Shown piece by piece: positions 19,540-33,842 of a stretch of DNA of 35,542 bases. Location of the stretch: NCBI GenBank assembly GCA_025965475.1, contig JAOPWV010000070.1, forward strand, positions 1-35,542, read 5' to 3'. The position numbers were made by a program, and so were the translations under genes. Source of the stretch: Frankiales bacterium. Its GTDB lineage: Bacteria > Actinomycetota > Actinomycetes > Mycobacteriales > SCTD01. Within the stretch, counting starts at the first letter, position 1. Each line of letters opens with the position of its first letter. Under the pieces are notes generated by a model, which saw nothing but the letters and a program-made list of their open reading frames with translations, did no database searches and was not told the origin of the DNA.

Positions 19540-20250
19540 TCAGGCGCCGGCGATCCCGCCGGGAGGCGCGACAGGGACCGCCGCGTCGTCGAAGTGCTCC
19601 AGGGCGACCTGCCGTGACCAGGTCACGTGCTCACGCATGAGAGTCTCGGCCAGGTCACCGTCGCGGTCGCGGAGGGCGTCCAGGATCGCCCGGTGCTGCC
19701 GGTTCGCCGTGCCGGACTGTCGGGACGGGTACGCGTAGCGGGACCGGTACGTGACCGTGAACGCGAGCACCTGGCTCGTGATCGTCTGCAGGAACTGGCT
19801 GCCCGTCGCCGCGCTGATGCCGACGTGGAACGCGAGATCGGCCTGCGCCTGCTCGATGGCGGTACCCCGCGTCCCGATCCGGCGGAGCCGGGCGTACGCC
19901 TCCTCGAGCTGGGCGAGGTGCGCGTCCGTCAGGGTCTCGGCGGCGGTGCGGGCGGCGTAGGACTCGATGACGGCGCGAAGGGAGTAGATCTGGGCGACGT
20001 CGCGCGCGGTGATCTCGCGGACCGTCGCGCCCCGGTTGGGGGTGAGGTCGACCAGCCCCTCCCCCTGGAGGATGAACATCGCCTCCCGGATCGGGGTACG
20101 GCTGATGCCCAGCTGCTCGGCAAGGAGCCGCTCGGGCATCGCCTCGCCCGGCTTGAGGCGACCGGCGAGGATGGCCTCCCGCAGGACGCGCGCGGCGCCC
20201 TCGCTGGTCCGGGTGGCCATGGGTATGGGCTCGGGGCCCAAGAGGTCCAT
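19540..20250 (-). CDS. GntR-family (FCD) regulator, probable repressor of the hydroxypyridine locus
   Basis: This 236-residue regulator has an N-terminal winged HTH (about residues 14-80, with ERLLAEQLGISRTPIREAMFILQGEGLV) and an FCD effector domain (about 85-215). The metal/ligand residues expected in FCD proteins are present: Asp138 and His142 (DLAFH), His186 (QHRAI) and His208 (REHV). Family members usually bind short palindromes built around GTATAC or GTnnnAC and are released by carboxylate effectors. Two identical GTATAC-containing sites lie in the divergent promoter region 1.8-2.0 kb away, and this is the only regulator between the MFS gene and the operon. The ATG at 20250 is used; ATG 20220 is an alternative. 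Confidence 0.92.
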   Translation of the reverse strand: MDLLGPEPIPMATRTSEGAARVLREAILAGRLKPGEAMPERLLAEQLGISRTPIREAMFILQGEGLVDLTPNRGATVREITARDVAQIYSLRAVIESYAARTAAETLTDAHLAQLEEAYARLRRIGTRGTAIEQAQADLAFHVGISAATGSQFLQTITSQVLAFTVTYRSRYAYPSRQSGTANRQHRAILDALRDRDGDLAETLMREHVTWSRQVALEHFDDAAVPVAPPGGIAGA

Positions 20251-20451: not shown

Positions 20452-21864
20452 TCAGCGCCTACCGGCCGGGACGTTGTCCGCGGTGGGCCCGGTGCGGGCG
20501 CCGGGGATGGCGACCACCGGCGGCTCGAGGTCGTCGCCGAAGTTGTGCATGTCCCAGTTGCTGGCGTCGAGGCCCGCGATCTCGGCCTCCTCGGTCACCC
20601 GCAGGCCACCGAACCGCTCGAAGAACAGGCACATGATCAGGCAGGGGACGCCCGCGACCAGCATCGTCGCGACGATGCCGGCCAGCTGCCACCACGGCGT
20701 GATCGTGGCGTGGCCGAGGGCGTACTCGCCCTTGAGGCCCGGGTAGCCGCCGGTCTTCGTCCCCCACTGCAGGAAGCCGGTCAGCAGGGCACCGGCGACG
20801 CCCGGGCCGAGGGCCAGCGGGATGACCTTGGGCTCGTCGATCCGGACGCGGCGCAGCAGGGCTGCCGTGCCCAGCGAGACGATCGGGCCGAGGGCGCCGA
20901 CGATCAGGCACTTCACCGGGTTGCCGATGTCGAACAGCGTCCCGCCCATCACCACGCCGGCGATCGGCCCGAGCAACGCCCAGTTCGCCTCGCGACGGCG
21001 GTAGGCGATGATCGTGCCCACGGTGCCGCCGCCGAGCAGCGCGGCGAACAGGTTCATGATGACCATGCCGAGCCCGCTCTGGGTCATCGAGACGCCGAAG
21101 TAGCCGGTGCCCGGGATGACGTAGCCGCTTCCGATGGTGATGAAGGGCAGCGCGAACAGGATCAGCAGCACACCTGCGCCGACGAGCCCGAGGTTGTGCG
21201 GGACGGGCTTGATGCCGGATTCGTGGTCACGGATGGCGCCGAGACGCGGGCCGACCCGCCAGGCGAGCACGAGCACCCACGTGCCGGCGAAGATGTACAG
21301 CGGGAAGATGCCGTCGAAGTCGTGCGTACCGCGGTTGGTCAGCGGGGAGAGCGAGCCCCAGCACAGGTAGCCGACCAGCGGCGAGAGCACCAGGCCGATC
21401 ACGAGCGACATGATGTACAGCGGCAGGGCCTTGATCCGCTCGACGACCCCGGTGTGGATCAGGGCCATGGTCGCCATCGTGAAGGTCACGAAGAAGACGA
21501 GGAAGATCTGCAGTACGTCGGCCTCGGGCAGCACCTTCGGGTCGATGGTGATGGCCGTGTTCGCGACGAACTGGCCGCCGATCCACCAGTCCTTGAAGGC
21601 CTGCCGCAGCGGGTGGGGGACCCCGAAGGCCGTGTTGAACTGCCACTGCCAGATGGCGTAACCGCAGATCAGCGTGCCGAGGCCGCCGATCATCGCGGCC
21701 GAGATCTTCTGGATCATCGTGTCCAGGACGTTGCGGCGGCGTACCAGGCCCATGTCCATCAGCGCGAGCCCGAGGACGACGAGCAGAACGGCCACTGCGC
21801 CGAGCGTGTTGATGAAGGTCACCAGCATGTTTGCGGTGGTGACCTGTTCCGGGAACGTTGGCAT
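20452..21864 (-). CDS. Amt/Mep/Rh-family permease lacking the twin pore histidines
   Basis: This is a 470-residue membrane protein with about 11 helices. Amt landmarks include GLVRRRNVLDTM (39-50; cf. GLIRGKNVL of AmtB), HDFDG (181-185; cf. LDFAGG), IKPVPHNL (218-225; cf. KPHNL), the repeat ending RIDEPKVI (341-348; cf. RVDDPCDV), and the cytosolic tail GLRVTEEAEIAGLD (420-433; cf. GLRVPEEQEREGLD). Both histidines that line the AmtB pore are missing. His168 aligns with Tyr190 (PLYIFAG), and His318 falls in PLALGPGVAG (349-358), where there is no His. Transport of ammonium by the standard route is therefore doubtful. AGGAGG precedes the ATG at 21864. It is divergent from the hydroxypyridine operon under an identical operator, suggesting a role in uptake of the N-heterocycle or handling of its nitrogen. 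Confidence 0.8.
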   Translation of the reverse strand: MPTFPEQVTTANMLVTFINTLGAVAVLLVVLGLALMDMGLVRRRNVLDTMIQKISAAMIGGLGTLICGYAIWQWQFNTAFGVPHPLRQAFKDWWIGGQFVANTAITIDPKVLPEADVLQIFLVFFVTFTMATMALIHTGVVERIKALPLYIMSLVIGLVLSPLVGYLCWGSLSPLTNRGTHDFDGIFPLYIFAGTWVLVLAWRVGPRLGAIRDHESGIKPVPHNLGLVGAGVLLILFALPFITIGSGYVIPGTGYFGVSMTQSGLGMVIMNLFAALLGGGTVGTIIAYRRREANWALLGPIAGVVMGGTLFDIGNPVKCLIVGALGPIVSLGTAALLRRVRIDEPKVIPLALGPGVAGALLTGFLQWGTKTGGYPGLKGEYALGHATITPWWQLAGIVATMLVAGVPCLIMCLFFERFGGLRVTEEAEIAGLDASNWDMHNFGDDLEPPVVAIPGARTGPTADNVPAGRR

Positions 21865-22330: not shown

Positions 22331-23029
22331 GTGGTCGATGCTCAAACCGCTTCGGTCTACGACCGCGCCGGCTTCGGGCGCCCTGTGCCGAGGGGGCAGC
22401 GCCCGGCGGTTCTCGTCGTCGACTTCACCTACGGGTTCACCGACCCGGCGTACCCCACGGGCTCCGACATGTCCCCGCAGGTGCTGGCCACGACCAGGCT
22501 GCTCGCGGTTGCCCGCAGCAAGGGCCTGCCGGTCATCTTCACGACGATCGCGTACGACGCGGGCCAGCTCCGCACGCTCACCTGGCTGCGCAAGGCGCCA
22601 GGGATGGCCGCCCTCGTCCTGGGCGGCCGGCTCGTCGAGGTGGATGATCGGCTGGACCGGCGGGAGGAGGAGACGGTGCTGGTGAAGACCGGCGCATCCG
22701 CCTTCTTCGGTACGCCGCTGTCCTCGCAGCTCGCCGCCGCGCAGGTCGACACCCTTGTCGTCACCGGAGCCACCACGAGCGGCTGCGTCCGGGCCAGCGT
22801 CGTCGACGCGGTGCAGAACGGCTACCCCACCCTCGTCCCCCGTGACTGCGTCGCCGACCGGGCCCGGGCCCCGCACGACGCAAGCCTGTTCGACATGAAC
22901 GAGAAGTACGCGGACGTCATCGCCCTCGACGAGGTTCTCTCCTACCTGCAGTCCGTACCGGCTCGTCCGAACGATCCCCAGTTCTCGCCCCACTCCACGA
23001 TCACGTCCCAGGCGGAGGCCCAGGCATGA
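22331..23029 (+). CDS. nicF: isochorismatase-family amidohydrolase, probable maleamate amidohydrolase (NicF-like)
   Basis: This is a 232-residue cysteine hydrolase of the isochorismatase fold. The catalytic triad is visible: Asp31 (VVDFTYGF), Lys119 (LVKTGASAF) and Cys152 (TTSGCVRAS), with the cis-peptide region before the cysteine (VTGATTSGC). In this operon, next to NicD-, NicE- and NicX-like genes, the expected reaction is maleamate + water to maleate + ammonia. N-carbamoylsarcosine amidase-like activity on another amide is an alternative. It starts at GTG 22331, with GCAGGGG upstream. It is the first gene of the operon and overlaps the next by four bases. Confidence 0.85.
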   Translation: MVDAQTASVYDRAGFGRPVPRGQRPAVLVVDFTYGFTDPAYPTGSDMSPQVLATTRLLAVARSKGLPVIFTTIAYDAGQLRTLTWLRKAPGMAALVLGGRLVEVDDRLDRREEETVLVKTGASAFFGTPLSSQLAAAQVDTLVVTGATTSGCVRASVVDAVQNGYPTLVPRDCVADRARAPHDASLFDMNEKYADVIALDEVLSYLQSVPARPNDPQFSPHSTITSQAEAQA

Positions 23030-24903
23030 CCCTGACCAGTTCGAACGACCCGGCGGACTCGTCCGCAGCGGCAGCCGGGCGGTTCATCAGCCCTTTCGCC
23101 GTGGAGACACCCGCGGGCGCTGAAGGCTGGGAGAGCATGTACCCCTACTACGCGCTGCTCAGCGAGGAGCGGCGCGAGCTGGACGACGGCAAGTTCTGGT
23201 TCTTCGACGGGATGCACAACCCGGAGCCGCTGTACCCGTTCGACACCATCATGACGGAGAACTGGTGGGTCGCCGCCAGCCAGATGTCGACCAGGGTCTG
23301 GCCGGTGCCCCCGGCCGGCGGTATCGACCACCGCATCATCAACGGCTACCTGTACATCAGCCCGAACGCCGTGACCGACCCGGTGGAGATCGGCCGCCGC
23401 GCCGAGTTGTTCGGCGTGCGGGCAGGGCACTACTTCCAGAACTGGGACGAGATCTACGACCAGTGGGTCACGAAGGCCACCGACTGCATCGACCGCCTCA
23501 AGGCGATCCAGTTCGCCCCGCTGCCGGACACCGAGCCGGAGAGCAGCGTCTTCGAGCACCGCGGCCTGTACTCCAGCTACCAGCTGCTGACGACGTACGG
23601 CGAACTGCTGAACAACCTGTTCGAGATGGGCTCGTACCACTTCGAGATGCTCAACCTCGGGTACGGCGCCTACCTCACGTTCCGTGAGTTCTGCCAGGCC
23701 GCGTTCCCGGGCATCAGCGACCAGACCATCGCGAGCATGGTGTCGGGCATCGACATCCTGCTGTTCCGGCCGGACGACGAGGTGCGCGGCCTCGCGAAGC
23801 TCGCGGTCGAGTTGGACCTGGCCGAGCTCATCCTCCCGGAGAACACTCCCGAGGCGACCCTGACGGCCATCGCCGGGCACGGCAACGGCGCCAAGTGGCT
23901 CGCCGCCTTCGAGGTGGCGAAGGACCCGTGGTTCTGGTTCTCGACCGGCGCCGGCTACACGCACTCGGACCGCGCCTGGATCGACGACCTGCGCCTGCCC
24001 TTCACCGCGATGCGCGGCTACATCCAGGGCCTGCAGAACGGCGAGGACATCCGCCGGCCGCTCGACGCGATTCTCGCCGAGCGCGTGCGGGTGACCGACG
24101 AGTACCGCTCGTACCTGCCCACCGAGGACGACCGGGACTCCTTCGACGGCCTGGTCGAGCTGGCCCGCAAGGTGTTCCCGTTCGTGGAGAACCACAACTT
24201 CTACATCGAGCACTGGCACCACTCGGTGTTCTGGTCGAAGGTGCGCGAACTCGGCGACGTGTTCGTCGCGCACAACTTCCTCGACGACCGCGAGGACATC
24301 TTCTACCTGCACCGCAACGAGATCTACTCCGCGCTGTACGACCTCAACATCGGCTGGGCGACCGGCACCGAGGCGCGCGGCGAGACCTACTGGCGTCCCG
24401 AGGTGGAGCGCCGCAGGCGCATCCGGGACGTCCTCAAGCAGTGGGCACCGCAGCCGGCGCTCGGTGTGCCGCCGGAGTTCATCACCGAGCCGCTGACCGT
24501 CATGCTCTGGGGCATCACCCAGGAGACCGTGCAGGAATGGCTCGGGGCCGGCGGAGAGGACGGCGGCGACGGTGAACTGCGGGGCGTGGCCGCCTCTGCC
24601 GGTAAGGCCACCGGCCGCGCCCGTGTCATCACCGACCCGGAGCAGCTGCACGAGGTGGAGGACGGCGACATCCTCGTCTGCCGCATCACGGCGCCGAGCT
24701 GGGCGCCGGTGTTCTCGCGCCTGTCGGCCGCCGTCTCCGACGTCGGCGGCATCATGGCCCACACCGCCATCGTCTGCCGTGAGTACGGCCTGCCCGCCGT
24801 CGTGGGCACCGGTTTCGCCACCGTCACCATCCGCACCGGCCAGCTCATCGAGGTCGACGGCAACCGCGGCACCGTCCGGATCCTCGAGGAGAACGCGCAG
24901 TGA
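23026..24903 (+). CDS. PEP-utilising phosphohistidine protein, phenylphosphate-synthase subunit-1-like
   Basis: This is a 625-residue protein. Its C-terminal ~90 residues are the PEP-utilisers mobile domain: GDILVCRITAPSWAPVF, then GGIMAHTAIVCREYGLPAVVGTG with phosphorylatable His579, then GQLIEVDGNRGTV. The N-terminal 530 residues, tryptophan- and tyrosine-rich, are unlike the PEP/pyruvate barrel, and no such barrel is present. Size (about 70 kDa) and layout match the larger subunit of phenylphosphate synthase, which carries a phosphohistidine near residue 569 and phosphorylates phenol; the ATP-grasp half is the next gene. I infer that it accepts phosphate from the partner and transfers it to the ring hydroxyl of a hydroxypyridine. 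A PEP-utilising protein is reported as needed for 3-hydroxypyridine dehydrogenase activity in Ensifer adhaerens HP1 (recalled). Confidence 0.85.
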   Translation: MTLTSSNDPADSSAAAAGRFISPFAVETPAGAEGWESMYPYYALLSEERRELDDGKFWFFDGMHNPEPLYPFDTIMTENWWVAASQMSTRVWPVPPAGGIDHRIINGYLYISPNAVTDPVEIGRRAELFGVRAGHYFQNWDEIYDQWVTKATDCIDRLKAIQFAPLPDTEPESSVFEHRGLYSSYQLLTTYGELLNNLFEMGSYHFEMLNLGYGAYLTFREFCQAAFPGISDQTIASMVSGIDILLFRPDDEVRGLAKLAVELDLAELILPENTPEATLTAIAGHGNGAKWLAAFEVAKDPWFWFSTGAGYTHSDRAWIDDLRLPFTAMRGYIQGLQNGEDIRRPLDAILAERVRVTDEYRSYLPTEDDRDSFDGLVELARKVFPFVENHNFYIEHWHHSVFWSKVRELGDVFVAHNFLDDREDIFYLHRNEIYSALYDLNIGWATGTEARGETYWRPEVERRRRIRDVLKQWAPQPALGVPPEFITEPLTVMLWGITQETVQEWLGAGGEDGGDGELRGVAASAGKATGRARVITDPEQLHEVEDGDILVCRITAPSWAPVFSRLSAAVSDVGGIMAHTAIVCREYGLPAVVGTGFATVTIRTGQLIEVDGNRGTVRILEENAQ

Positions 24904-25997
24904 ACTCCCCCTCTCCCTACGTCCTGTGGCTCGACGACCCGAGCGCGCCCGAGAGCAAGCTGCTCGGCGGCAAGTTCGGCAGCCTCGCGCAGATGACCGA
25001 GGCGGGCTTCGCCGTACCGCCTGGCTTCGGTGTCACGACGACGGCGTACCGCCACTTCCTGAAGGCGGCCGGCCTGGCCGACCGGGCCCGTGAGGTGCGG
25101 GCCCGCGCCGTGACCGCGGACCTCGCCGAGGTGCAGGCGCTCAGCGCCGAGTTCACCACCGCCGTCGGGGCCGCGCCGCTGCCGGCCGACCTGGAGACGG
25201 CCGTCCGCGAGGCGTACGCGGAACTCGAGAGCCGTACCGGACAGGCCGGGCTCCCGGTCGCCGTCCGCTCGAGCGGGGAGTCCGAGGACCTGGCCGGCGC
25301 CAGCTTTGCGGGCCAGTACGACACCTTCCTGTGGATCAAGGGTGCGGAGGAGGTGCTGCAGCACGTGCGCCGCTGCTGGGCCGGCATGTTCGGCGCGGCG
25401 GTGCTGACCTACCGGCCTGAGGGCGACGCGTCGATCACGACGGCCGACCACGGCATCTGCGTCGGCATCCAGCAGATGGTCGAGGCCCGCGCCGCCGGCG
25501 TCATGTTCACGCTCGACCCCGTCACCGGTGACCGTTCCAAGGTCGTCATCGAGGGCTGCTGGGGTCTCGGTGAGGGCGTCGTCAGCGGCGGCATCACCCC
25601 GAGCCGCTACGTCGTGGACAAGGTGACCTTCGAGATCCTGCGCCGCGAGGTCGCCGTGCAGGAGACGCAGTTCCGCTTCGACCCGGCGATCTCGGCGGTC
25701 GGTCTCGTCCCGGTCGAGGCGGACCGCAGGGAGATGACCTGCCTGGAGGACGTCCACATCGACGCGCTGGCCCGCCTGGCCAAGCGCATCGAGCAGCACC
25801 GGGGCGCGCCGCAGGACATCGAATGGGCAGTCAGCGAATCCGGCGACGTGCATGTGCTCCAGGTGCGGCCGGAGACGGTGTGGAGCCGGCGTGCGGCCAC
25901 CCAGGTCATCGGGGAGCGCAAGTCCGCCGTCGACCACGTCCTGGCCCGGTTCGCCGGTGTCGGGCTGACGCAGCGCGCGGGCAGTCCTCAGTCGTGA
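24900..25997 (+). CDS. PEP synthase/pyruvate phosphate dikinase N-terminal (ATP-grasp) protein
   Basis: This 365-residue protein consists only of the ATP-binding domain of PEP synthase/PPDK. Motifs in order: GGKFGSLAQMTEAGFAVPPGF (start of domain, 23-43), AVRSSGESEDLAGASFAGQYDTFL (121-144), QQMVEARAAGVMFTLDPVTGD (191-211), EGCWGLGEGVVSG (218-230), QDIEWA and LQVRPETVWS. It lacks the phosphohistidine and PEP domains, which are supplied or replaced by the preceding gene. The split matches the 40-kDa subunit of phenylphosphate synthase, which uses ATP to load phosphate on the partner histidine. GTG 24900 overlaps the upstream stop; GAGGAG lies eight bases before it. The 24-kDa CBS-domain third subunit of that enzyme is not encoded here. 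Confidence 0.88.
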   Translation: MNSPSPYVLWLDDPSAPESKLLGGKFGSLAQMTEAGFAVPPGFGVTTTAYRHFLKAAGLADRAREVRARAVTADLAEVQALSAEFTTAVGAAPLPADLETAVREAYAELESRTGQAGLPVAVRSSGESEDLAGASFAGQYDTFLWIKGAEEVLQHVRRCWAGMFGAAVLTYRPEGDASITTADHGICVGIQQMVEARAAGVMFTLDPVTGDRSKVVIEGCWGLGEGVVSGGITPSRYVVDKVTFEILRREVAVQETQFRFDPAISAVGLVPVEADRREMTCLEDVHIDALARLAKRIEQHRGAPQDIEWAVSESGDVHVLQVRPETVWSRRAATQVIGERKSAVDHVLARFAGVGLTQRAGSPQS

Positions 25998-26872
25998 AGG
26001 CGGCAGCGTTCGACTACCACCGGCCCGCGAGCGTCTCGGAGGCGGTGAGCTACCTCGACCAGTACGGCGGCACCGCCCGTGTCCTGGCGGGTGGGCAGAG
26101 CCTGGTGCCCATGCTCAACATGCGGCTGTGGCGGCCGGCCGCACTCATCGACATCAACGCGATCGAGGAGCTCGGCCAGGTGCGCCTGGACGGGGACAGC
26201 ACCGTTCTCGGTGCCCTGGTGCGGTACGCCCAGATCGAGCGTGGACCTGTCGTCGCCGAACGGCTGCCCCTGCTCGCCTACATCGTCCGCCACATCGGTG
26301 ACCGCCAGGTCCGCAACCGGGGCACCATCGGCGGCAGCCTCGTGCAGGGCGACCCGACGGGGGAGATGCCGCTGGCCTGCCTGGTCCTGGACGCGGTGGT
26401 GCACGTGACGGGTCCGGCGGGGACGCGTGAGATTCCCCTGGCCGACCTGTACGAGGGGTCCTACGCGACGGCTCTCGACCTCGAGGAGCTGCTGACCGAG
26501 ATCATCTTCCCGCGCAGCCCGCAGTATTTCGCGTTCGCCGAGTGCTGCCGGCGGCACAACGACTTCGCGGTCGTCAGCGCCGTCGCCACCGGCGACCGGG
26601 GACCGGACGGCCGCTGGTGCGACGTGCGCCTCGCGCTCGGCGGCGTGGCCGACACCCCCGTGCGCGCCGAACGGGCGGCTGAACTTCTGTCCGGCACCGA
26701 GCTGTCCGACGCCGACATCCGCGACGCGGCGGAGGCGGCCATGCAGGTCGTCGACCCGCCCAGCGACGTGCGTGCGTCGGCGGAGTACCGGCGCCACCTG
26801 GTTCCGGTGTACGTGGAGAAGGTGCTGACCGGCCTGCGGGCCGCAGCAACCGACGAGAGGGAACAGCGGTGA
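25994..26872 (+). CDS. molybdenum hydroxylase FAD-binding (medium) subunit
   Basis: This is the 292-residue FAD subunit of a xanthine-dehydrogenase-family hydroxylase (CoxM/NdhF type). The FAD pyrophosphate loops LAGGQSLVPMLNMR (31-44) and VRNRGTIGGSLVQGDPTGEMP (106-126) are intact, and a C-terminal CO-dehydrogenase flavoprotein domain follows (about 180-285). It would take electrons from the 2Fe-2S subunit (30946-31455). The GTG overlaps the stop of the ATP-grasp gene (GTGA) with no strong RBS of its own, so it is probably translated by coupling. It is separated from its small and large partner subunits by 4.1 kb containing the SRPBCC, HD and ring-cleavage genes. Confidence 0.93.
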   Translation: MKAAAFDYHRPASVSEAVSYLDQYGGTARVLAGGQSLVPMLNMRLWRPAALIDINAIEELGQVRLDGDSTVLGALVRYAQIERGPVVAERLPLLAYIVRHIGDRQVRNRGTIGGSLVQGDPTGEMPLACLVLDAVVHVTGPAGTREIPLADLYEGSYATALDLEELLTEIIFPRSPQYFAFAECCRRHNDFAVVSAVATGDRGPDGRWCDVRLALGGVADTPVRAERAAELLSGTELSDADIRDAAEAAMQVVDPPSDVRASAEYRRHLVPVYVEKVLTGLRAAATDEREQR

Positions 26873-27543
26873 AGCTCCACGAGGAGTTCGACGTCGCCAA
26901 GCCGGTGGCGGCGATCTGGACGTTCTTCGAGCAGCCGGAGAAGGTCGCGCAGTGCGTGCCCGGCGTCGAACAGCTCACGGTGGTCGACGCGGACAACGTC
27001 AACGTCCGGCTGACCCAGAGCATCGGCCCGATGACGGCCACCTTCGACGCGAAGGTGAAGATCGTCGAGCGGGTGTCCGAGGAACTGATGCGGTTCACCG
27101 CAACCGGGCGCAGCGTCCGGGGGGCCATGGGCAACGTCCGGGCCTCGAACACGGTGCACCTGACCGCGGTGGACGGCGGGACCCGGGTGCGGGTCGAGGG
27201 TGACGTCACCCTGGCGGGTGCCCTCGGCAGCGTCGGGCAGAAGGTCGTCGCGAGCCAGGCCAGCAAGGTGACGGCGCAGTTCGCCCGCAACCTCGAGACG
27301 GTGCTCAACGGCGGTCAGGTCGAGGACGCCTCGCGTGAGCGAGCGGGAACCAAGCGTGCCCCGTCGGCGCCTGCGTCAGCGGCGCCGGCCGCTCCGTCCA
27401 CGACGGCCCCGGCACAGTCCCTGCCGCCGGTGTCCGAGCTCCCTCCCCTCGACCCGTGGCCGCGGGCTGCGGCAGTGCTGAGCGCGGTCTCGGTCGTCCT
27501 CAGCCTCCTGGCCCTGCTGCGCTCCCGCCGGGCCGCACGATGA
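26869..27543 (+). CDS. SRPBCC (CoxG-like) protein with C-terminal membrane anchor
   Basis: This is a 224-residue protein. Residues 1-150 form a CoxG-type SRPBCC domain (MKLHEEFDVAKPVAAIWTFFEQPEKVAQCVPGVEQL, then ASQASKVTAQFARNLETVL). A proline/alanine-rich linker (about 158-195) and one transmembrane helix (about 200-217, AAVLSAVSVVLSLLALL) ending in RSRRAAR follow. CoxG recruits CO dehydrogenase to the membrane. In some N-heterocycle hydroxylases an SRPBCC domain is fused to a subunit, but here it is separate, as described for the four-component 3-hydroxypyridine dehydrogenase of Ensifer. The likely role is tethering the Mo hydroxylase to the respiratory chain. GTG 26869 overlaps the FAD-subunit stop. 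Confidence 0.9.
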   Translation: MKLHEEFDVAKPVAAIWTFFEQPEKVAQCVPGVEQLTVVDADNVNVRLTQSIGPMTATFDAKVKIVERVSEELMRFTATGRSVRGAMGNVRASNTVHLTAVDGGTRVRVEGDVTLAGALGSVGQKVVASQASKVTAQFARNLETVLNGGQVEDASRERAGTKRAPSAPASAAPAAPSTTAPAQSLPPVSELPPLDPWPRAAAVLSAVSVVLSLLALLRSRRAAR

Positions 27544-28169
27544 CGGTGGCTCTGCCGTGGACGGCGCCCGAGGTGGCCCTCGGGACCGACCTCGAGCGTG
27601 CCGCCGCGCAGTGGATCGAGCCGTACAACCAGCAGCAGCACCTGATGCGGACGCGTGACTGGCTCGTGCACCTGTCGCCGGGCGCCAACGTCGAGATGCG
27701 CCTCGCGGCGATGACCCACGACATCGAGCGGATGTTCCCGGGCGGTCCGGTGCTGGACCTGGCCTCGCGGGACTGGGACGACCCGTTCTACCTGTTCGCG
27801 CACGGCACGCGCTCCGCGGAGATCGTCGCCGACTGGATGGGCGAGCTGGAGCCGGCGTGCGTGGCCGCCGACCGCAAGGAGGTACGCCGGCTCGTCGCCC
27901 TGCACGAGGTGGGCGGGCTGCGCGGCGCGGACGAGATCCAGGCAGCCGACTCGCTCTCCTTCCTCGAGAGCCTGGCGGATGTCGCGCGCGACTGGGTCCT
28001 GTCCGGCGCTTGCTCGCGCGAGAAGGCCGCTGCCAAGCTGTACTACTCGGTCGACCGGATCCGCATACCCGCTGCCGAAGAACCCGCGGCGCAACTTCTC
28101 GAGTGGGCGCTCGACCGCCTGCCCGCCGCTGCCCCCGCCGCCGACCGCGACCGGGTGGCGGCGCCATGA
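27540..28169 (+). CDS. HD-domain metal-dependent phosphohydrolase-like protein
   Basis: This 209-residue protein is not a pyridine enzyme that I recognise. Its residue pattern fits an HD domain: His34 (HLMRTR) or His44, then His60-Asp61 in AAMTHDIERMF, His88 in AHGTRSAEIVADWM, His122 in VALHEVGG, and Asp137 in IQAADSLSFLESL. This H...HD...H...H...D order is that of HD phosphohydrolases, including two-metal types. The ATG overlaps the SRPBCC stop (ATGA), in the middle of the operon. Given the phosphotransferase pair two genes upstream, I infer that it removes phosphate from a phosphorylated dihydroxypyridine or corrects a dead-end phosphoester. A nucleotide-clearing or regulatory role is the alternative. 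Confidence 0.75.
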   Translation: MTVALPWTAPEVALGTDLERAAAQWIEPYNQQQHLMRTRDWLVHLSPGANVEMRLAAMTHDIERMFPGGPVLDLASRDWDDPFYLFAHGTRSAEIVADWMGELEPACVAADRKEVRRLVALHEVGGLRGADEIQAADSLSFLESLADVARDWVLSGACSREKAAAKLYYSVDRIRIPAAEEPAAQLLEWALDRLPAAAPAADRDRVAAP

Positions 28170-28197
28170 CCACCACCGACTCAGGGACGTGTCACAG

Positions 28198-28947
28198 ATG
28201 AACCGACGTATCGGCCTTATCGTGCCGAGCTCCAACACCACGATGGAGACGGAGATCCCGGAGCTCCTGCGGCGTTACGCCGAGGAGCACGCCGACTTCA
28301 CGGCGACCTTCCATGCCAGCCGCGCTCGGCTGCACACCGTCGACGCCGAGTCGCTGGCCAAGATGGTCGACGACGGCGAGCGCTGCGCGGCCGAAGTCGG
28401 TGACGCGCAGGTCGACGTGGTGGGCTATGCGTGCCTCGTCGCGGTCATGGCGCAGGGCAACGGCGCGCACGTCGGCATCGAGGAGCGGCTGCAGAAGGTC
28501 CTGTCCGAGAGCCGGTCGGCCGAGGCGAAGATGACGAGCAGTGCCGGTGCCCTGGTGCGCACCCTGCTCGAGCTCGGCCTGCGCCGGGTCGCCATCGTCG
28601 CGCCGTACATGCCGCAGCTGACGAGCCTCGTGGTCGGCTACCTGGAGGATGCCGGCATCAGTGTCGCCGACAGCGTCAGCCTGTCGGTCGCCGACAACTG
28701 CGAGGTCGGCCGGCTCGACCCGGAGAACCTGCTCGACCACGTCAAGCGCCTCGACACCAGCGAGGTCGACGGGGTCGTCCTGTCGGCCTGCGTGCAGATG
28801 CCGTCGCTGCCCGCCGTGCAGCGGGCCCAGGACACCCTGGGTCTGCCCGTGGTCACGGCCGCCACGGCGACCACCCGCGAGATCCTGCTCGCGCTGGGCC
28901 TCGAGCCGCGCGTCCGCGACGCCGGCGCTGCTCTGGCGGGTACGTGA
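28198..28947 (+). CDS. nicE: maleate cis-trans isomerase (Asp/Glu racemase superfamily), NicE/MaiA-like
   Basis: This is a 249-residue enzyme converting maleate to fumarate, the last step of the pathway. The maleate-isomerase N-terminus RIGLIVPSSNTTMETEIP (4-21) is diagnostic. The two catalytic cysteines are Cys79 (VVGYACLVAVM) and Cys198 (VVLSACVQMPSL), close to positions 76-82 and 194-200 in characterised family members. The ATG at 28198 follows AGGGA ten bases upstream; GTG 28189 is in frame but too close to that RBS. It lies 28 bp after the HD gene and overlaps the next gene by four bases. Arylmalonate decarboxylase-type activity is a family alternative made unlikely by the neighbours. 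Confidence 0.9.
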   Translation: MNRRIGLIVPSSNTTMETEIPELLRRYAEEHADFTATFHASRARLHTVDAESLAKMVDDGERCAAEVGDAQVDVVGYACLVAVMAQGNGAHVGIEERLQKVLSESRSAEAKMTSSAGALVRTLLELGLRRVAIVAPYMPQLTSLVVGYLEDAGISVADSVSLSVADNCEVGRLDPENLLDHVKRLDTSEVDGVVLSACVQMPSLPAVQRAQDTLGLPVVTAATATTREILLALGLEPRVRDAGAALAGT

Positions 28948-29807
28948 GCATCGCGCTCAGCGGTCGCGACGTGACCGTGCAGGCCAACGGCCTGCGCCAC
29001 CACGTCCTCACCTACGGCCAGGCAGGCGGTCCTGACCTCCTGGTGCTGCCGGGCATCACGAGCCCGGCGGCAACGGCCGACTTCCTTGGTGTGCTCTTCG
29101 CGGAGATGGGTTACCGGGTCACCGTGCCGGACCTGCGCGGGCGCGGCGGGACGGACCGGCCGCCGACCGGCAGCTACCGGCTGACCGACTACGCCGCCGA
29201 CGTGGCCGCGCTGGTGGCCGCGCTCGAGCTGCGCACCCCCACCGTCCTCGGGCACTCGCTGGGGGCTCGCATCGCCGCGGCATACGCCGTTCTGCACGCG
29301 CCGGACGACCACGGACAGCTGATCCTCGTCGACCCGCCCACCTCGGGCCCGGGCCGCGGTCCGTACCCGACCTCGCGCGACGCGTTCCTCGAGCAGCTGC
29401 AGCAGGCCCAGCGGGGGACCCACGCCGACGAGGTGCGCCGGTTCTATCCGACGTGGCCCGAGCGGGAACTGCAGATCCGGGCCGACGTACTCGCGACCTG
29501 CGACGAGACAGCCGTGCTCGAAACGCACGCGGGCTTCGAGTCGGAGGACTTCTTCCCGTACTGGCGCAAGCTGACCGGACCCGTCGTCCTGGTCCGCGGT
29601 GGCGACAGTCCTGTCGTCCCGCCGGCTGCTGCCGAGGACCTGCACCGCGAGCAGCCGGGATTCGACATCGTCACGGTTCCCGGCGCGGGCCACATGGTCC
29701 CGTGGGACAACCTGCCCGGGTTTCTCGACGCCGTACGCCCGTACCTGCGGTCCCCCGGGGGGCCGCTCCCGTTTTCGCCGACCTCCACCCCCGACGGCCA
29801 GGAGTAG
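28944..29807 (+). CDS. nicD: alpha/beta hydrolase, probable N-formylmaleamate deformylase (NicD-like)
   Basis: This is a 287-residue alpha/beta hydrolase: oxyanion loop LPGITSP (35-41), VPDLRGRGGTDRP (61-73), nucleophile elbow LGHSLGAR with Ser105, Asp130 in ILVDPP and His250 in GAGHMVPWDN. The acid 25 residues after the serine is the arrangement reported for P. putida NicD (Ser101, Asp125, His245, recalled), rather than the usual late Asp. The reaction would be N-formylmaleamate + water to maleamate + formate. GTG 28944 overlaps the maleate isomerase stop. The next gene encodes the dioxygenase that makes its substrate, three bases downstream. Confidence 0.87.
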   Translation: MSIALSGRDVTVQANGLRHHVLTYGQAGGPDLLVLPGITSPAATADFLGVLFAEMGYRVTVPDLRGRGGTDRPPTGSYRLTDYAADVAALVAALELRTPTVLGHSLGARIAAAYAVLHAPDDHGQLILVDPPTSGPGRGPYPTSRDAFLEQLQQAQRGTHADEVRRFYPTWPERELQIRADVLATCDETAVLETHAGFESEDFFPYWRKLTGPVVLVRGGDSPVVPPAAAEDLHREQPGFDIVTVPGAGHMVPWDNLPGFLDAVRPYLRSPGGPLPFSPTSTPDGQE

Positions 29808-29810
29808 TTC

Positions 29811-30845
29811 ATGGACCAGAGCCAGCTCAACGAGATGTGCCGCCGCCAGCTCGAGCTCAGCGCCGTGCACGAGGGCGAGAGTGTGGTCGTGCTGTCGCAG
29901 GGCCACGACCGCGCGGACTACGCGGACGCGTTCCTCTACGCCGCCCGCAGTCTGGGCGCGCAGGCGTACCACATGCGCCTGTCCACGCCGCAGTCCTCGA
30001 CCGGTGCGTGGGCGGTCGGCGAGTCCGAGCTGGCCAGCAACCCGTACGCCGTCGAGGCGCTCAAGCAGGCCGACATGCTGGTGGACCTCGCCTTTTTGCT
30101 GTTCAGCAAGGAGCAGTTCGCGATCCAGGGCGCCGGCACCCGGATCCTCACGGCGGTCGAGCCTGCCCCGCTGCTGGCCAAGCTGTTCCCGACGCGCGAG
30201 CTGCGCGACCGCGTCGAGGTCGGGGGCGAGCTGCTGGCCAGGGCCCAGAACATGCGGATCACCAGCCCGCACGGCACCGACGTCACCTACCGGCTCGGCG
30301 TGTACCCGACGATCACCGAGTACGGCTACACCGACCAGCCGGGCCGCTGGGACCACTGGCCGGCGGCATTCGTGTTCACGGGTGCCGCCGACGACGGCGT
30401 GGACGGCCAGATCGTCATCGCGCCGGGCGACGTCCTGCTGCCGTTCAACACCTACGTGAACACGCCGATCACCCTCACGATCGAGCAGGGTTTCATCACC
30501 GACATCAAGGGTGACCTCGACGCCGACCTGCTGCACTCGTACATCAAGAGTTTCGACGACCCGCGCGGCTACGGCATGTCGCACGTGGGCTGGGGTCTGG
30601 ACCACCGGGCCAACTGGCACGGGCTCACGCAGTTCCCGGGCGGCATGGGCATGGAGCTGCGCTCCTTCTACGGAAACGTCATGTTCTCCATCGGGCCGAA
30701 CAACGAGCTCGGTGGACCCAACGACACGCCCTGCCACTTCGACATCCCGATGCGCGGCGCGAGCCTGTTCCTCGACGACGAGCCGATCGTCGTGGACGGC
30801 GACCTCGCCGTGAAGGAGATGCAGCGGACCGACCGCCGCAGCTGA
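29811..30845 (+). CDS. nicX: 2,5-dihydroxypyridine 5,6-dioxygenase (NicX-like)
   Basis: This 344-residue protein belongs to the M29-aminopeptidase-like family that includes NicX, the Fe(II) ring-opening dioxygenase making N-formylmaleamate. The putative iron ligands are His258 (GMSHVGWG), His309 and Asp311 (PCHFD). Their spacing (51 and 2) is close to the His265/His318/Asp320 set reported for P. putida NicX (recalled). Upstream landmarks are VTYRLGVYPTITEYG and the PGG loop (FPGGMGMELRSFYGN). AGGAG lies six bases before the ATG. A leucyl-aminopeptidase annotation is the common misnomer. Together with NicD-, NicE- and NicF-like neighbours it fixes 2,5-dihydroxypyridine as the central intermediate. 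Confidence 0.9.
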   Translation: MDQSQLNEMCRRQLELSAVHEGESVVVLSQGHDRADYADAFLYAARSLGAQAYHMRLSTPQSSTGAWAVGESELASNPYAVEALKQADMLVDLAFLLFSKEQFAIQGAGTRILTAVEPAPLLAKLFPTRELRDRVEVGGELLARAQNMRITSPHGTDVTYRLGVYPTITEYGYTDQPGRWDHWPAAFVFTGAADDGVDGQIVIAPGDVLLPFNTYVNTPITLTIEQGFITDIKGDLDADLLHSYIKSFDDPRGYGMSHVGWGLDHRANWHGLTQFPGGMGMELRSFYGNVMFSIGPNNELGGPNDTPCHFDIPMRGASLFLDDEPIVVDGDLAVKEMQRTDRRS

Positions 30846-30945
30846 CGGCGTCCCGTACTCCCTCGACCGACGACTCCCTGGTGGACATCGCTGTGAACGT
30901 GACCGAACGCTGTGCCGACGCGCCCAAGGGTGGAGGTGTGTGCCG

Positions 30946-31455
30946 ATGAGCGCCCTCGAGCCCGAGGTGGACATCACCGTGACCGTCAACGGTGAGATCG
31001 TGACCGCCCGCGCACCTGCCCGGCTCCATGCGGCGGACTTCCTGCGTCAGCGGCTCGGCCTGACCGGGACGCACATCGGCTGCGAGCAGGGTGTCTGCGG
31101 CATGTGCACCGTCCTCGTCGACGGCGAGGCGGTGAAGTCCTGCCTGATGCTGGCCGTACAGCTCGACGGCAGGCAGGTGCAGACGGTGGAGTCGCTGGCC
31201 GAGGACGACCGCCTCAACCCGCTTCAGCAGGCGTTCAAGGACGAGCACGCGCTGCAGTGCGGGTTCTGCACCCCCGGTTTCCTCATGACGGCGACGGCGC
31301 TCGCGCGGCGGGGGGAGCGGCTGTCCCGCAACGAGATCCGCGAGGAGATCGCCGGCGTGCTGTGCCGGTGCACCGGCTACGACAACATCGTCAAGGCGAT
31401 CGAGAAGCACCTCGAGGAGACCGCCGACGCGGATGCGGCGCGGGTGGCCCGATGA
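30946..31455 (+). CDS. molybdenum hydroxylase 2Fe-2S (small) subunit
   Basis: This is a 169-residue CoxS/XdhC-type iron-sulfur subunit with two clusters. The plant-ferredoxin-type site is Cys46, Cys51, Cys54 (CEQGVCGMC) and Cys66. The helical site is Cys105, Cys108 (CGFCTPG), Cys140 and Cys142 (CRCTGY). It passes electrons from the Mo centre to the FAD subunit. The ATG at 30946 is nine bases after GGAGG; a GTG at 30940 is only three bases from it. The 100 bp before it show no clear promoter or terminator, so it is probably part of the same transcript. It overlaps the large subunit gene by four bases. Confidence 0.95.
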   Translation: MSALEPEVDITVTVNGEIVTARAPARLHAADFLRQRLGLTGTHIGCEQGVCGMCTVLVDGEAVKSCLMLAVQLDGRQVQTVESLAEDDRLNPLQQAFKDEHALQCGFCTPGFLMTATALARRGERLSRNEIREEIAGVLCRCTGYDNIVKAIEKHLEETADADAARVAR

Positions 31456-33842
31456 CCCACATCCTGGAGCGGCCGACCGGTCCGCTCGGCGGGTCCCACG
31501 ACGACCGCACCGACGCGATAGGCAGCAACGTCCCGCGCAAGGAGGACGACCGCCTGCTGCGCGGCGACGGGCGTTTCACCGACGACGTCGAGCCGCCGCA
31601 CGTCCTGCACATGGCGGTCGGGCGCTGCCCGTTCCCGCATGCGCAGATCCTCGGCATCGACACGTCCGCGGCGCTGGAGGTCGAGGGGGTCAAGCACATC
31701 CTCATCGGCTCCGACGTTCGTGCGGCCACCGAGCCGCTGACGGTCCTGCGGCCGGTGCCGGGCGCCCCCGATCTGCACTACTACGCGCTGGCCCAGGACG
31801 TCGCGACGTACGAGGGACAGCCCGTCGTCAGCGTGGTGGCGACGAGCCGGCACATCGCCGAGGACGCGCTCGAGCTGATCGACATCGACTACGAGCCGCT
31901 GCCCCACGTGGTGGACGTGATCGCCGCGCTGGAGCCGGACGCCCCCGTCATCCACCCGCACGTGCTCGGGTCCAACCTGCTCGTCTCGAACAGGGACGAG
32001 TCCGGTGACCCGGAGGCCCGGATGGCCGAGGCGGACGTCGTCGTCGCTGGCCGGTTCCGCATCAACCGCGTGACCGGGCTGCCCATGGAGACCCGCGGCA
32101 TCGTCGTCGAGTGGCGCCCGGGCGCGCGCGAGCTCACCGTGCACACGTCGACGCAGGTCCCGCACCTGGTGCGCAAGCAGCTCGCCGAGTCGCTGCGGCT
32201 GGACGAGGGCGAGATCCGCGCGGTGGCCTCCGACGTCGGCGGCGGCTTCGGGCTCAAGCTCGGTATCTACCCCGAGGACGTGCTGGCCTGCCTGCATGCG
32301 ATGGCCCTGCGCCGGCCGGTCAAGTGGACCGAGGACCGGTCCGAGCACTTCCGCGCCACGACGCACGCCCGCGAGGCCGTGCACGACTTCCGGATCGGCG
32401 CGACGGCCGACGGTCGGATGACGGCGATGACGAACGTCTACGCCACCGACCTCGGCGGGTGGAACTCCTCGTTCGGCTCGGCCCAGCTGTCCAGCGTCGT
32501 CTTCAACGGGCCGTACAAGATCGAGGACGGCTCGGTCGAGCGCCGGGTGATCGTGACCAACAAGACGCCGATCGGGGCGTACCGCGGGTACGGCCAGCCG
32601 GAAGTCAACTTCGCGTACGAGCGGCTGGTCGACCAGCTGGCCCGCCGGCTCGACATGGACCCGCTCGAGCTGCGCGCCATGAACATGGTGCGCCCGACCG
32701 ACATGCCGTGGCGCAACCCCAGCGGCGCCGTCTACGACAGCGGTGACTACGAGCTGTGCCTGCGGATGGCGGGCGACGCGGTCGGCTACGACGAACACCG
32801 CAAGGCCGTCCGCGGACCCCGTCCGGACGGGCGGTACGTCGGCATCGGCCTGTCGTCCTTCGTCGAGCGGACCGGCTACGCGAGCTCGCGATTCCTGGCC
32901 CGCCGTGGGTCGCAGTTCGGCGCGCACGAGAGCGTCACGTTGCGGGCCAACCGGTCCGGCGGCGTCGACCTGTACACCGGCGTCTCGACCATGGGACAGA
33001 GCAGCGAGACGGCGTTCGCCCAGGTGACGAGCAGCGTGCTCGGCATCGCGTACGACAAGGTGAGCGTGCACGCCGGCGACACGGCCGCGTCGCCGTTGAA
33101 CACCGGTGCCTTCGCGTCCCGCACGATGATCGCGGCGGCGGGGGCGCTCAAGGACGCGGCGACGCAGCTGCGCGACAAGACACTGCGCCTGGCGGCCTGG
33201 CGCCTCGAGACCGAGGTCGGCACGCTGGAGGTCGCCGGCGACCGGGTGCAGCACCGGTCCGACCCGGACCGGTACGTCCTGCTGTCCGAGGTCTTCTCGA
33301 TGGCGATCCTCGGACAGGGGCTGCCGCCGGACGAGGAGCCGGGCCTGGAGGCGACGGCGCACTTCGAGCCGCCGGACGCGGCGTACTCGTTCGGCACGGC
33401 CGCGGCAGTCGTCTCCGTCGATCCGAACACCGGCGACTTCGACGTCGAGCGCTTCGTCCTGGTCCACGACTGCGGCACCGTCGTGAACCCGAAGGTGGTC
33501 GACGGGCAGGTCCGTGGCGCGCTGGTCCAGGGGCTCGGCGCGGCGCTGTCCGAGGAGCTGCGGTACGACGCCGACAGCGGGCAGCTGGTCAACGGCACGA
33601 TGATGGACTACTTCGCGCCGAGCGCCGCCGACGTGCCTCCCATCGAGCTGCTGCACACCGAGGTGCCGTCACCGGTCACCACGTTCGGGGTCCGCGGGGT
33701 CGGCGAGGTGGGCACGATCCCGCCGGGCGCCGCGGTGGCCAACGCGATCTGCGACGCGCTTGCGGACTTCGGCGTGGAGCTGTCGACGCTGCCCATCACG
33801 CCCGAAAGCGTCTGGAAGGCGCTTCGGGAGCAGCGCGCCTGA
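31452..33842 (+). CDS. molybdenum hydroxylase molybdopterin (large) subunit
   Basis: This is a 796-residue catalytic subunit of the xanthine dehydrogenase/CO dehydrogenase family, binding the molybdopterin cytosine dinucleotide cofactor. Motifs: GSNVPRKEDDRLLRGDGRFTDDV at the N-terminus, DVGGGFGLKLGIYPEDV, TPIGAYRGYGQPE, STMGQSSETAFAQV, and GVRGVGEVGTIPPGAAVANAI with catalytic Glu752. The CO-dehydrogenase active-site loop with selenyl-cysteine ligand (VAYRCSFR) is replaced by GAYRGYGQ, so this is a hydroxylase, not a CO dehydrogenase. The inferred reaction is water-derived hydroxylation at the ring carbon next to nitrogen, giving 2,5-dihydroxypyridine or its phosphoester. No cofactor-maturation gene (XdhC type) lies in the window. 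Confidence 0.95.
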   Translation: MTHILERPTGPLGGSHDDRTDAIGSNVPRKEDDRLLRGDGRFTDDVEPPHVLHMAVGRCPFPHAQILGIDTSAALEVEGVKHILIGSDVRAATEPLTVLRPVPGAPDLHYYALAQDVATYEGQPVVSVVATSRHIAEDALELIDIDYEPLPHVVDVIAALEPDAPVIHPHVLGSNLLVSNRDESGDPEARMAEADVVVAGRFRINRVTGLPMETRGIVVEWRPGARELTVHTSTQVPHLVRKQLAESLRLDEGEIRAVASDVGGGFGLKLGIYPEDVLACLHAMALRRPVKWTEDRSEHFRATTHAREAVHDFRIGATADGRMTAMTNVYATDLGGWNSSFGSAQLSSVVFNGPYKIEDGSVERRVIVTNKTPIGAYRGYGQPEVNFAYERLVDQLARRLDMDPLELRAMNMVRPTDMPWRNPSGAVYDSGDYELCLRMAGDAVGYDEHRKAVRGPRPDGRYVGIGLSSFVERTGYASSRFLARRGSQFGAHESVTLRANRSGGVDLYTGVSTMGQSSETAFAQVTSSVLGIAYDKVSVHAGDTAASPLNTGAFASRTMIAAAGALKDAATQLRDKTLRLAAWRLETEVGTLEVAGDRVQHRSDPDRYVLLSEVFSMAILGQGLPPDEEPGLEATAHFEPPDAAYSFGTAAAVVSVDPNTGDFDVERFVLVHDCGTVVNPKVVDGQVRGALVQGLGAALSEELRYDADSGQLVNGTMMDYFAPSAADVPPIELLHTEVPSPVTTFGVRGVGEVGTIPPGAAVANAICDALADFGVELSTLPITPESVWKALREQRA

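Follow-up and report, generated by a model that had tools for sequence, protein, structure and literature searches.

A stretch of 35,542 nucleotides from a Frankiales bacterium (assembly GCA_025965475.1, contig JAOPWV010000070.1, positions 1 to 35,542; hereafter the window) carries a single-strand operon of 11 genes at positions 22331-33842, which its sequence indicates to be, probably, a catabolic operon for 3-hydroxypyridine of the 3hpd type that works via a temporary phosphate. In Ensifer adhaerens HP1, in which the 3hpd cluster was described, HpdA is reportedly a molybdenum (Mo) dehydrogenase that has a separate SRPBCC/CoxG protein and yields 2,5-dihydroxypyridine, and a phosphoenolpyruvate (PEP)-utilising protein and a dikinase are said to be involved in HpdA activity, their function having been left open. 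The first-pass annotation of the window had named this cluster as one with the same odd gene set and with a reported need for the two proteins in dehydrogenase activity, which is right in outline. To our knowledge, neither an HD protein nor an Amt-like protein nor substrate phosphorylation is part of the description of the HP1 cluster. Publication of the cluster (AEM 2020, 86:e01313-20) is documented in two citing papers (PMC11962113, PMC10117386), one of which describes it as widely distributed, including in Actinobacteria and Proteobacteria (PMC10117386), while the other mentions its CoxG homologue in a discussion of CoxG, to which an anchoring role is assigned (PMC11962113). The window operon shares with this cluster the Mo, flavin adenine dinucleotide (FAD) and iron-sulfur (FeS) subunits with an SRPBCC protein, the PEP-utilising protein and the dikinase and, judged by gene content, it is of the 3hpd type.

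Three other described systems share parts of the operon. Homologues of NicX, NicD, NicF and NicE are common to the window and to the nic cluster for nicotinate of Pseudomonas putida, from which the window differs by the absence of NicC, by another Mo enzyme and by the addition of kinase and HD genes. HpeHI, CreHI and PpsAB have been reported as two-component dikinases of phenols, whose swivel domain has the signature T/S-x2-GG-x3-H with Met replacing the regulatory Thr (PMC12167813). The kinase pair of the window (subunits H and I) resembles them in its two subunits of the same sizes and in its phospho-His signature with Met; however, its H subunit belongs to a clade of its own, its partner is neither a carboxylase nor a P450 but a Mo hydroxylase with a predicted N-heterocyclic substrate, and the operon has no PpsC-type CBS protein. 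The Cre pathway for 4-cresol in Corynebacterium glutamicum phosphorylates its substrate, oxidises the phosphoester and then dephosphorylates it, a logic like that of the scheme proposed here, although the Cre oxidation is performed by a P450 on a methyl group. The Cre-type locus of Rhodococcus also carries an HD protein (PF01966), whose gene, by its place in the gene order, appears to correspond to creD, which encodes the 4-cresol pathway's phosphohydrolase, but no tblastn-detectable similarity exists between this protein and the HD protein of the window.

The kinase pair, with its PF00391 and PF01326 halves, had been described at first as a split PEP-synthase-like phosphotransferase, which understates what the sequence indicates, namely that H and I belong to the two-component phenolic dikinase family and are not a PEP synthase. 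The two subunits are encoded by separate genes, as in other members of this family, the H subunit lacks the pyruvate-binding domain, and its match to NF006153 spans the full length. All parts of the signature are present (S571, G574-G575, M577 and H579), and in an alignment of 91 H sequences H579 and M577 are each conserved in at least 95%. H shares 45-49% identity with plasmid-borne homologues from loci of the Pps, Cre and Hpe types, whose neighbours include phenylphosphate carboxylase in Azoarcus, P450, ferredoxin, reductase and HD genes in the Cre-type locus of Rhodococcus, and biotin carboxylase and an HAD protein in Hpe-type loci; the plasmid records that matched H over its full length included none from Ensifer. 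A tree was built from 86 H proteins, and the 48 that come from Mo-hydroxylase loci all fell into one clade with full support, which stands apart from Pps, Cre and Hpe. Nested in this Mo-type clade was also the H subunit of locus L110, which has no visible Mo subunit and in which H adjoins an HD gene and the gene for the Mo-insertion factor XdhC. The annotated dikinase loci examined combine the kinase with a reaction on the phosphoester and, with the exception of the Pps carboxylase type, with a candidate gene for removal of the phosphate: an HAD gene in Hpe-type loci, a PF01966 HD gene in Cre-type loci, a metallophosphoesterase gene in Haladaptatus and, in loci like that of the window, the HD gene described below.

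Several further dikinase arrangements were observed. A second paralogous H (about 55-62% identical) occurs in L043, L101, L102, L106, L116, L123 and L124, often directly 3' of an HD gene, and possibly serves a second substrate or shares the ATP-grasp partner. A further dikinase pair, in which H has only about 28-31% identity, is present in the window's own genome (L061, G000:C34) and in a genome that also holds a cluster of the 11-gene type (L062, G111:C4). On a plasmid of Haladaptatus salinisoli (L144:2410-11942), an archaeal dikinase pair has a metallophosphoesterase and a ring-hydroxylating dioxygenase of the Rieske type as neighbours, which looks like another phosphate-tag pathway.

The window protein first described as an HD-domain protein has the metal motif and the fold that this name implies but no Pfam PF01966 match; DUF4202 alone was matched, at E=0.074. 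Its sequence contains the HD motif (H..HD..D) and two further His, and the metal residues H34, H60, D61, H88, H122 and D137 show no variation among 25 homologues, nine of which match PF01966 with E-values of up to 0.1. A sequence search of PDB gave chance-level matches only, and the HD protein of Thermomicrobium roseum has 47% identity to that of the window. The AlphaFold2 model, with a predicted local distance difference test score (pLDDT) of 93.4, had HD hydrolases as its top structural matches, including 2pq7 (Z 13.7, root-mean-square deviation 4.2 over 156), 3b57 (Z 13.1) and YpgQ (Z 12.9), although the best of the weak Foldseek E-values was 0.1. High scores are common for helical folds, and the assignment is therefore based on motif and fold jointly, which together predict an HD-fold metal hydrolase.

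The distribution of this gene was examined in a survey in which the H alignment was scanned against one genome per species, resulting in 57 named loci. The HD gene follows the Mo-type kinase in its occurrence. Of the 33 named loci with a Mo subunit, 30 contain it, and one of the other three is cut by a contig end, its genome having the HD gene on a different contig. Seven of the eight genomes with cut-off Mo-type loci have the gene, and none of eight genomes with non-Mo dikinases has it at full length. Among 396 genomes of the phylum, full-length HD proteins were detected in three, exactly those with a Mo-type cluster; since the HD profile had contained these three sequences, the informative part of the scan is the absence elsewhere. 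Similarly, among 61 relatives, they were confined to the window's genome and one genome with the full cluster, and every full-length HD gene in the two sets lies within a cluster. In the genus and family to which the window belongs, the remaining genomes sampled lack the gene, and this patchiness suggests horizontal transfer or patchy loss. Partial HD-like matches in G002, G105, G286 and G376 (30-37% identity to the Thermomicrobium protein) were rejected, with no such kinase or Mo gene in the stretch concerned. L103 and L109, the other two loci without the HD gene, have a kinase of the Mo-type clade together with two Mo hydroxylases.

All the NicX-, NicD-, NicF- and NicE-like enzymes and the Mo hydroxylase named in the first-pass annotation were confirmed in place by Pfam and PDB matches, and only the CoxG/SRPBCC gene (26869-27543) had been left out of its gene list. 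The operon runs in the order NicF, H, I, FAD subunit, CoxG/SRPBCC, HD, NicE, NicD, NicX, [2Fe-2S] subunit and Mo subunit, and seven of its ten gene junctions are 4-bp overlaps (ATGA or GTGA), in agreement with the earlier description of mostly overlapping genes. Conserved in the NicX-like protein are the Fe ligands (His265, Ser302, His318 and Asp320) and two residues that contact the substrate (Glu177 and His189). In the window and in actinobacterial relatives, His105 of NicX is replaced by Phe98, which is not decisive because the published H105F mutant is still active (PMC7910607), and NicX has been reported to act on 2,5-dihydroxypyridine only (PMC7910607). Homology gives good support to the earlier proposal that NicX, NicD, NicF and NicE make up the entire pathway by which 2,5-dihydroxypyridine is converted to fumarate. 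No NicC-type monooxygenase was found within the operon, again as noted earlier. Mo hydroxylases put oxygen on the carbon adjoining the nitrogen, and therefore the beta hydroxyl should already be on the ring; 3-hydroxypyridine fits, and a beta-hydroxylated pyridine of this kind is well supported as the predicted substrate.

All components of the Mo hydroxylase, that is, the Mo, FAD and FeS subunits and the separate SRPBCC protein, are encoded in the operon. In the Mo subunit, all 23 kinase-linked sequences have Arg at position 301, and this position is occupied by Leu, Thr or other residues in non-linked relatives, 1t3q, carbon monoxide dehydrogenase and 7dqx. In addition, Arg473 is present in most.

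What the analysis shows directly is the gene content, the family of the kinase, the fold and motif of the HD protein, and the co-occurrence; the scheme built on them has the kinase acting on a hydroxypyridine, the Mo enzyme on its phosphoester and the HD protein as phosphatase, which we regard as probable. The I subunit would bind ATP, and His579 of the H subunit would take the phosphoryl group and transfer it to the 3-hydroxypyridine hydroxyl, so that 3-pyridyl phosphate, adenosine monophosphate and inorganic phosphate are formed. The three-subunit Mo hydroxylase, presumably anchored to the membrane by CoxG, would then hydroxylate the phosphoester at C6, the carbon beside the nitrogen and para to the oxygen. 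An oxyanion para to C6 is expected to disfavour nucleophilic attack by the Mo centre, so that the phosphoester could mask it and make C6 electrophilic, and the phosphate might also offer a handle to the Mo hydroxylase. Hydrolysis by the HD protein would release 2,5-dihydroxypyridine, which NicX, NicD, NicF and NicE would convert via N-formylmaleamate, maleamate and maleate to fumarate; this last step and the general dikinase chemistry are modelled on established enzyme families. The phosphorylated ring intermediate had already been suggested in the first-pass annotation, and the suggestion gains strong indirect support from the grouping of the kinase with proven phenol dikinases and from the tight co-occurrence of the HD-fold gene. 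No report of a phosphorylated hydroxypyridine, of hydroxylation of the phosphoester or of dephosphorylation by an HD protein was found in the open-licence literature, and a subscription paper could hold one. The cluster is already known; the mechanism, proposed on genomic evidence, appears to be new. It would give a concrete role to the PEP-utilising protein and dikinase of 3hpd and would name an HD phosphatase as the missing third component. If the scheme is true, phosphate masking would open electron-rich hydroxypyridines to nucleophilic Mo hydroxylation, the range of the phenolic dikinases would extend from benzenoid to N-heterocyclic substrates, and an unassigned HD family would gain a function.

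The same 11 genes were also found in Geodermatophilus, Amycolatopsis, Planosporangium, Pseudonocardia, Mycobacterium and other genera, a recurrence among actinomycete loci that had been proposed as a check and which indicates that their grouping is not due to chance. The gene set is common to loci of Actinomycetota and Pseudomonadota, with varying order, and H-I-FAD-CoxG-FeS-Mo-HD is the order in many proteobacterial loci. In L096, L097, L099, L119 and L121, the flanks examined around this core contain no NicX, NicD or NicF gene; NicX relatives (40-48% identity) are encoded elsewhere in four of the five genomes, and none was found in the genome of L121. A divergent core is present in Thermomicrobium roseum, with downstream genes different from those of the window. 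The genes for the kinase, the Mo hydroxylase, CoxG and the HD protein are thus grouped also where no ring-opening genes adjoin them. More generally, it seems fairly likely that these loci represent a bacterial pathway family in which a hydroxylated N-heterocycle receives a phosphate tag from a phenolic-type dikinase, is hydroxylated as the aryl phosphate by a Mo enzyme and loses the tag to a dedicated HD phosphatase of an uncharacterised, distantly DUF4202-like family, the core being a transferable module combined with varied ring-opening genes. In L097 and L099, genes for a hydroxylase of the toluene/phenol-monooxygenase type and for an ATP-binding cassette (ABC) transporter adjoin the core, and the monooxygenase-type genes might act on pyridine or a compound like it to provide the ring with its hydroxyl.

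Other explanations of the kinase and HD genes have to be considered. The dikinase could serve only to trap and accumulate the substrate, with the HD protein freeing 3-hydroxypyridine before the Mo hydroxylase acts; the sub-micromolar Michaelis constant of HpeHI suggests scavenging (PMC12167813), and a candidate Amt-like transporter is conserved at the locus. Phosphorylation followed by dephosphorylation ahead of hydroxylation would, however, cost ATP without net chemistry, the next enzyme in the Hpe pathway takes the phosphorylated compound as its substrate (PMC12167813), and the kinase, Mo hydroxylase and HD genes are kept together where the nic genes are not adjacent, which makes simple trapping unlikely. 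It is very improbable that the kinase pair and the HD protein act in maturation or assembly of the Mo hydroxylase, through phosphorylation of cofactor or protein, and not in substrate chemistry: the pairing of H and HD with XdhC in L110 and the reported involvement of the two HP1 proteins in HpdA activity would agree with such a role, but known H-I members phosphorylate small phenols (PMC12167813), the family also occurs with P450, carboxylases and Rieske dioxygenases, none of which has a Mo cofactor, and the other Mo hydroxylases of the window's genome have no H of the Mo-type clade. The scheme may also be right with a different substrate, either one other N-heterocycle with a beta hydroxyl or several such compounds, as the differing downstream genes, the two H subunits of some loci (possibly for two substrates) and the toluene-monooxygenase-type genes near L097 could indicate; for the window we consider this rather unlikely, since the full NicX-NicD-NicF-NicE set is present, NicX is reported to be specific for 2,5-dihydroxypyridine and the precursor of the latter in a Mo hydroxylation would be 3-hydroxypyridine.

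Two observations count against tagging, Mo hydroxylation and removal of the tag by the HD protein. No HD gene was found in the genomes of L103 and L109 (Acidimicrobiia), despite a Mo-type kinase and a Mo subunit; and several loci have two H subunits with one I, of which the simple scheme has no need. In the Mo subunit, Arg301 is, by its conservation, no more than a candidate phosphate contact.

Features of the operon and its flanking genes, with window coordinates
Feature	Coordinates	Strand	Evidence
GntR/FCD-type transcriptional regulator, likely operon control	19540..20250	-	top named matches are GntR-type regulators
Divergent Amt-family (PF00909) membrane protein, candidate substrate transporter	20452..21864	-	PF00909 127.8 bits; without twin His
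NicF-like maleamate amidohydrolase, isochorismatase fold	22331..23029	+	PF00857 7.7e-36; PDB 4l07 (isochorismatase-type hydrolase) E=2.7e-73
Dikinase H subunit, substrate-binding and swivel (phospho-His579), HpeH/CreH/PpsA family	23026..24903	+	PF00391; NF006153 810 bits, exceeds cut-off
Dikinase I subunit, ATP-grasp, HpeI/CreI/PpsB family	24900..25997	+	PF01326 6e-93; PDB 9goj 5.1e-64
FAD subunit of Mo hydroxylase	25994..26872	+	PF00941, PF03450
CoxG/SRPBCC protein, probable membrane anchor of Mo hydroxylase	26869..27543	+	PF06240 3.4e-20; hydrophobic C-terminus
HD-fold metal hydrolase, proposed aryl-phosphate phosphatase	27540..28169	+	invariant metal motif, AlphaFold2 fold, co-occurrence
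NicE-like maleate cis-trans isomerase	28198..28947	+	PDB 4fq7 (maleate isomerase) E=4.9e-61; Cys regions GYACLV and SACVQM both kept
NicD-like N-formylmaleamate deformylase, alpha/beta hydrolase	28944..29807	+	PF00561 4.9e-25; cluster position
NicX-like 2,5-dihydroxypyridine 5,6-dioxygenase	29811..30845	+	PDB 7cn3 E=1.4e-89
[2Fe-2S] subunit of Mo hydroxylase	30940..31455	+	PF01799 1.2e-29
Molybdopterin catalytic subunit of Mo hydroxylase	31452..33842	+	PF02738/PF20256; PDB 1t3q (quinoline 2-oxidoreductase) E=8.5e-148; catalytic Glu752

Two genes outside positions 22331-33842, those for the Amt-like protein and the GntR regulator, belong to the neighbourhood of the operon. The regulator is found in about 37 related loci by tblastn, at 29-71% identity, including the Thermomicrobium locus L039. 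The Amt-like gene is divergent from the operon and has the same position in 23 related loci, some of them in Proteobacteria. The canonical Amt of the genome scores 434.6 bits against PF00909, far above the value for the Amt-like protein, in which both pore twin His are replaced (Y190, L352); instead of ammonium, this protein may transport the substrate. A paralogue of the Amt-like protein in the window's genome (G000:C122, L147) is also without the twin His.

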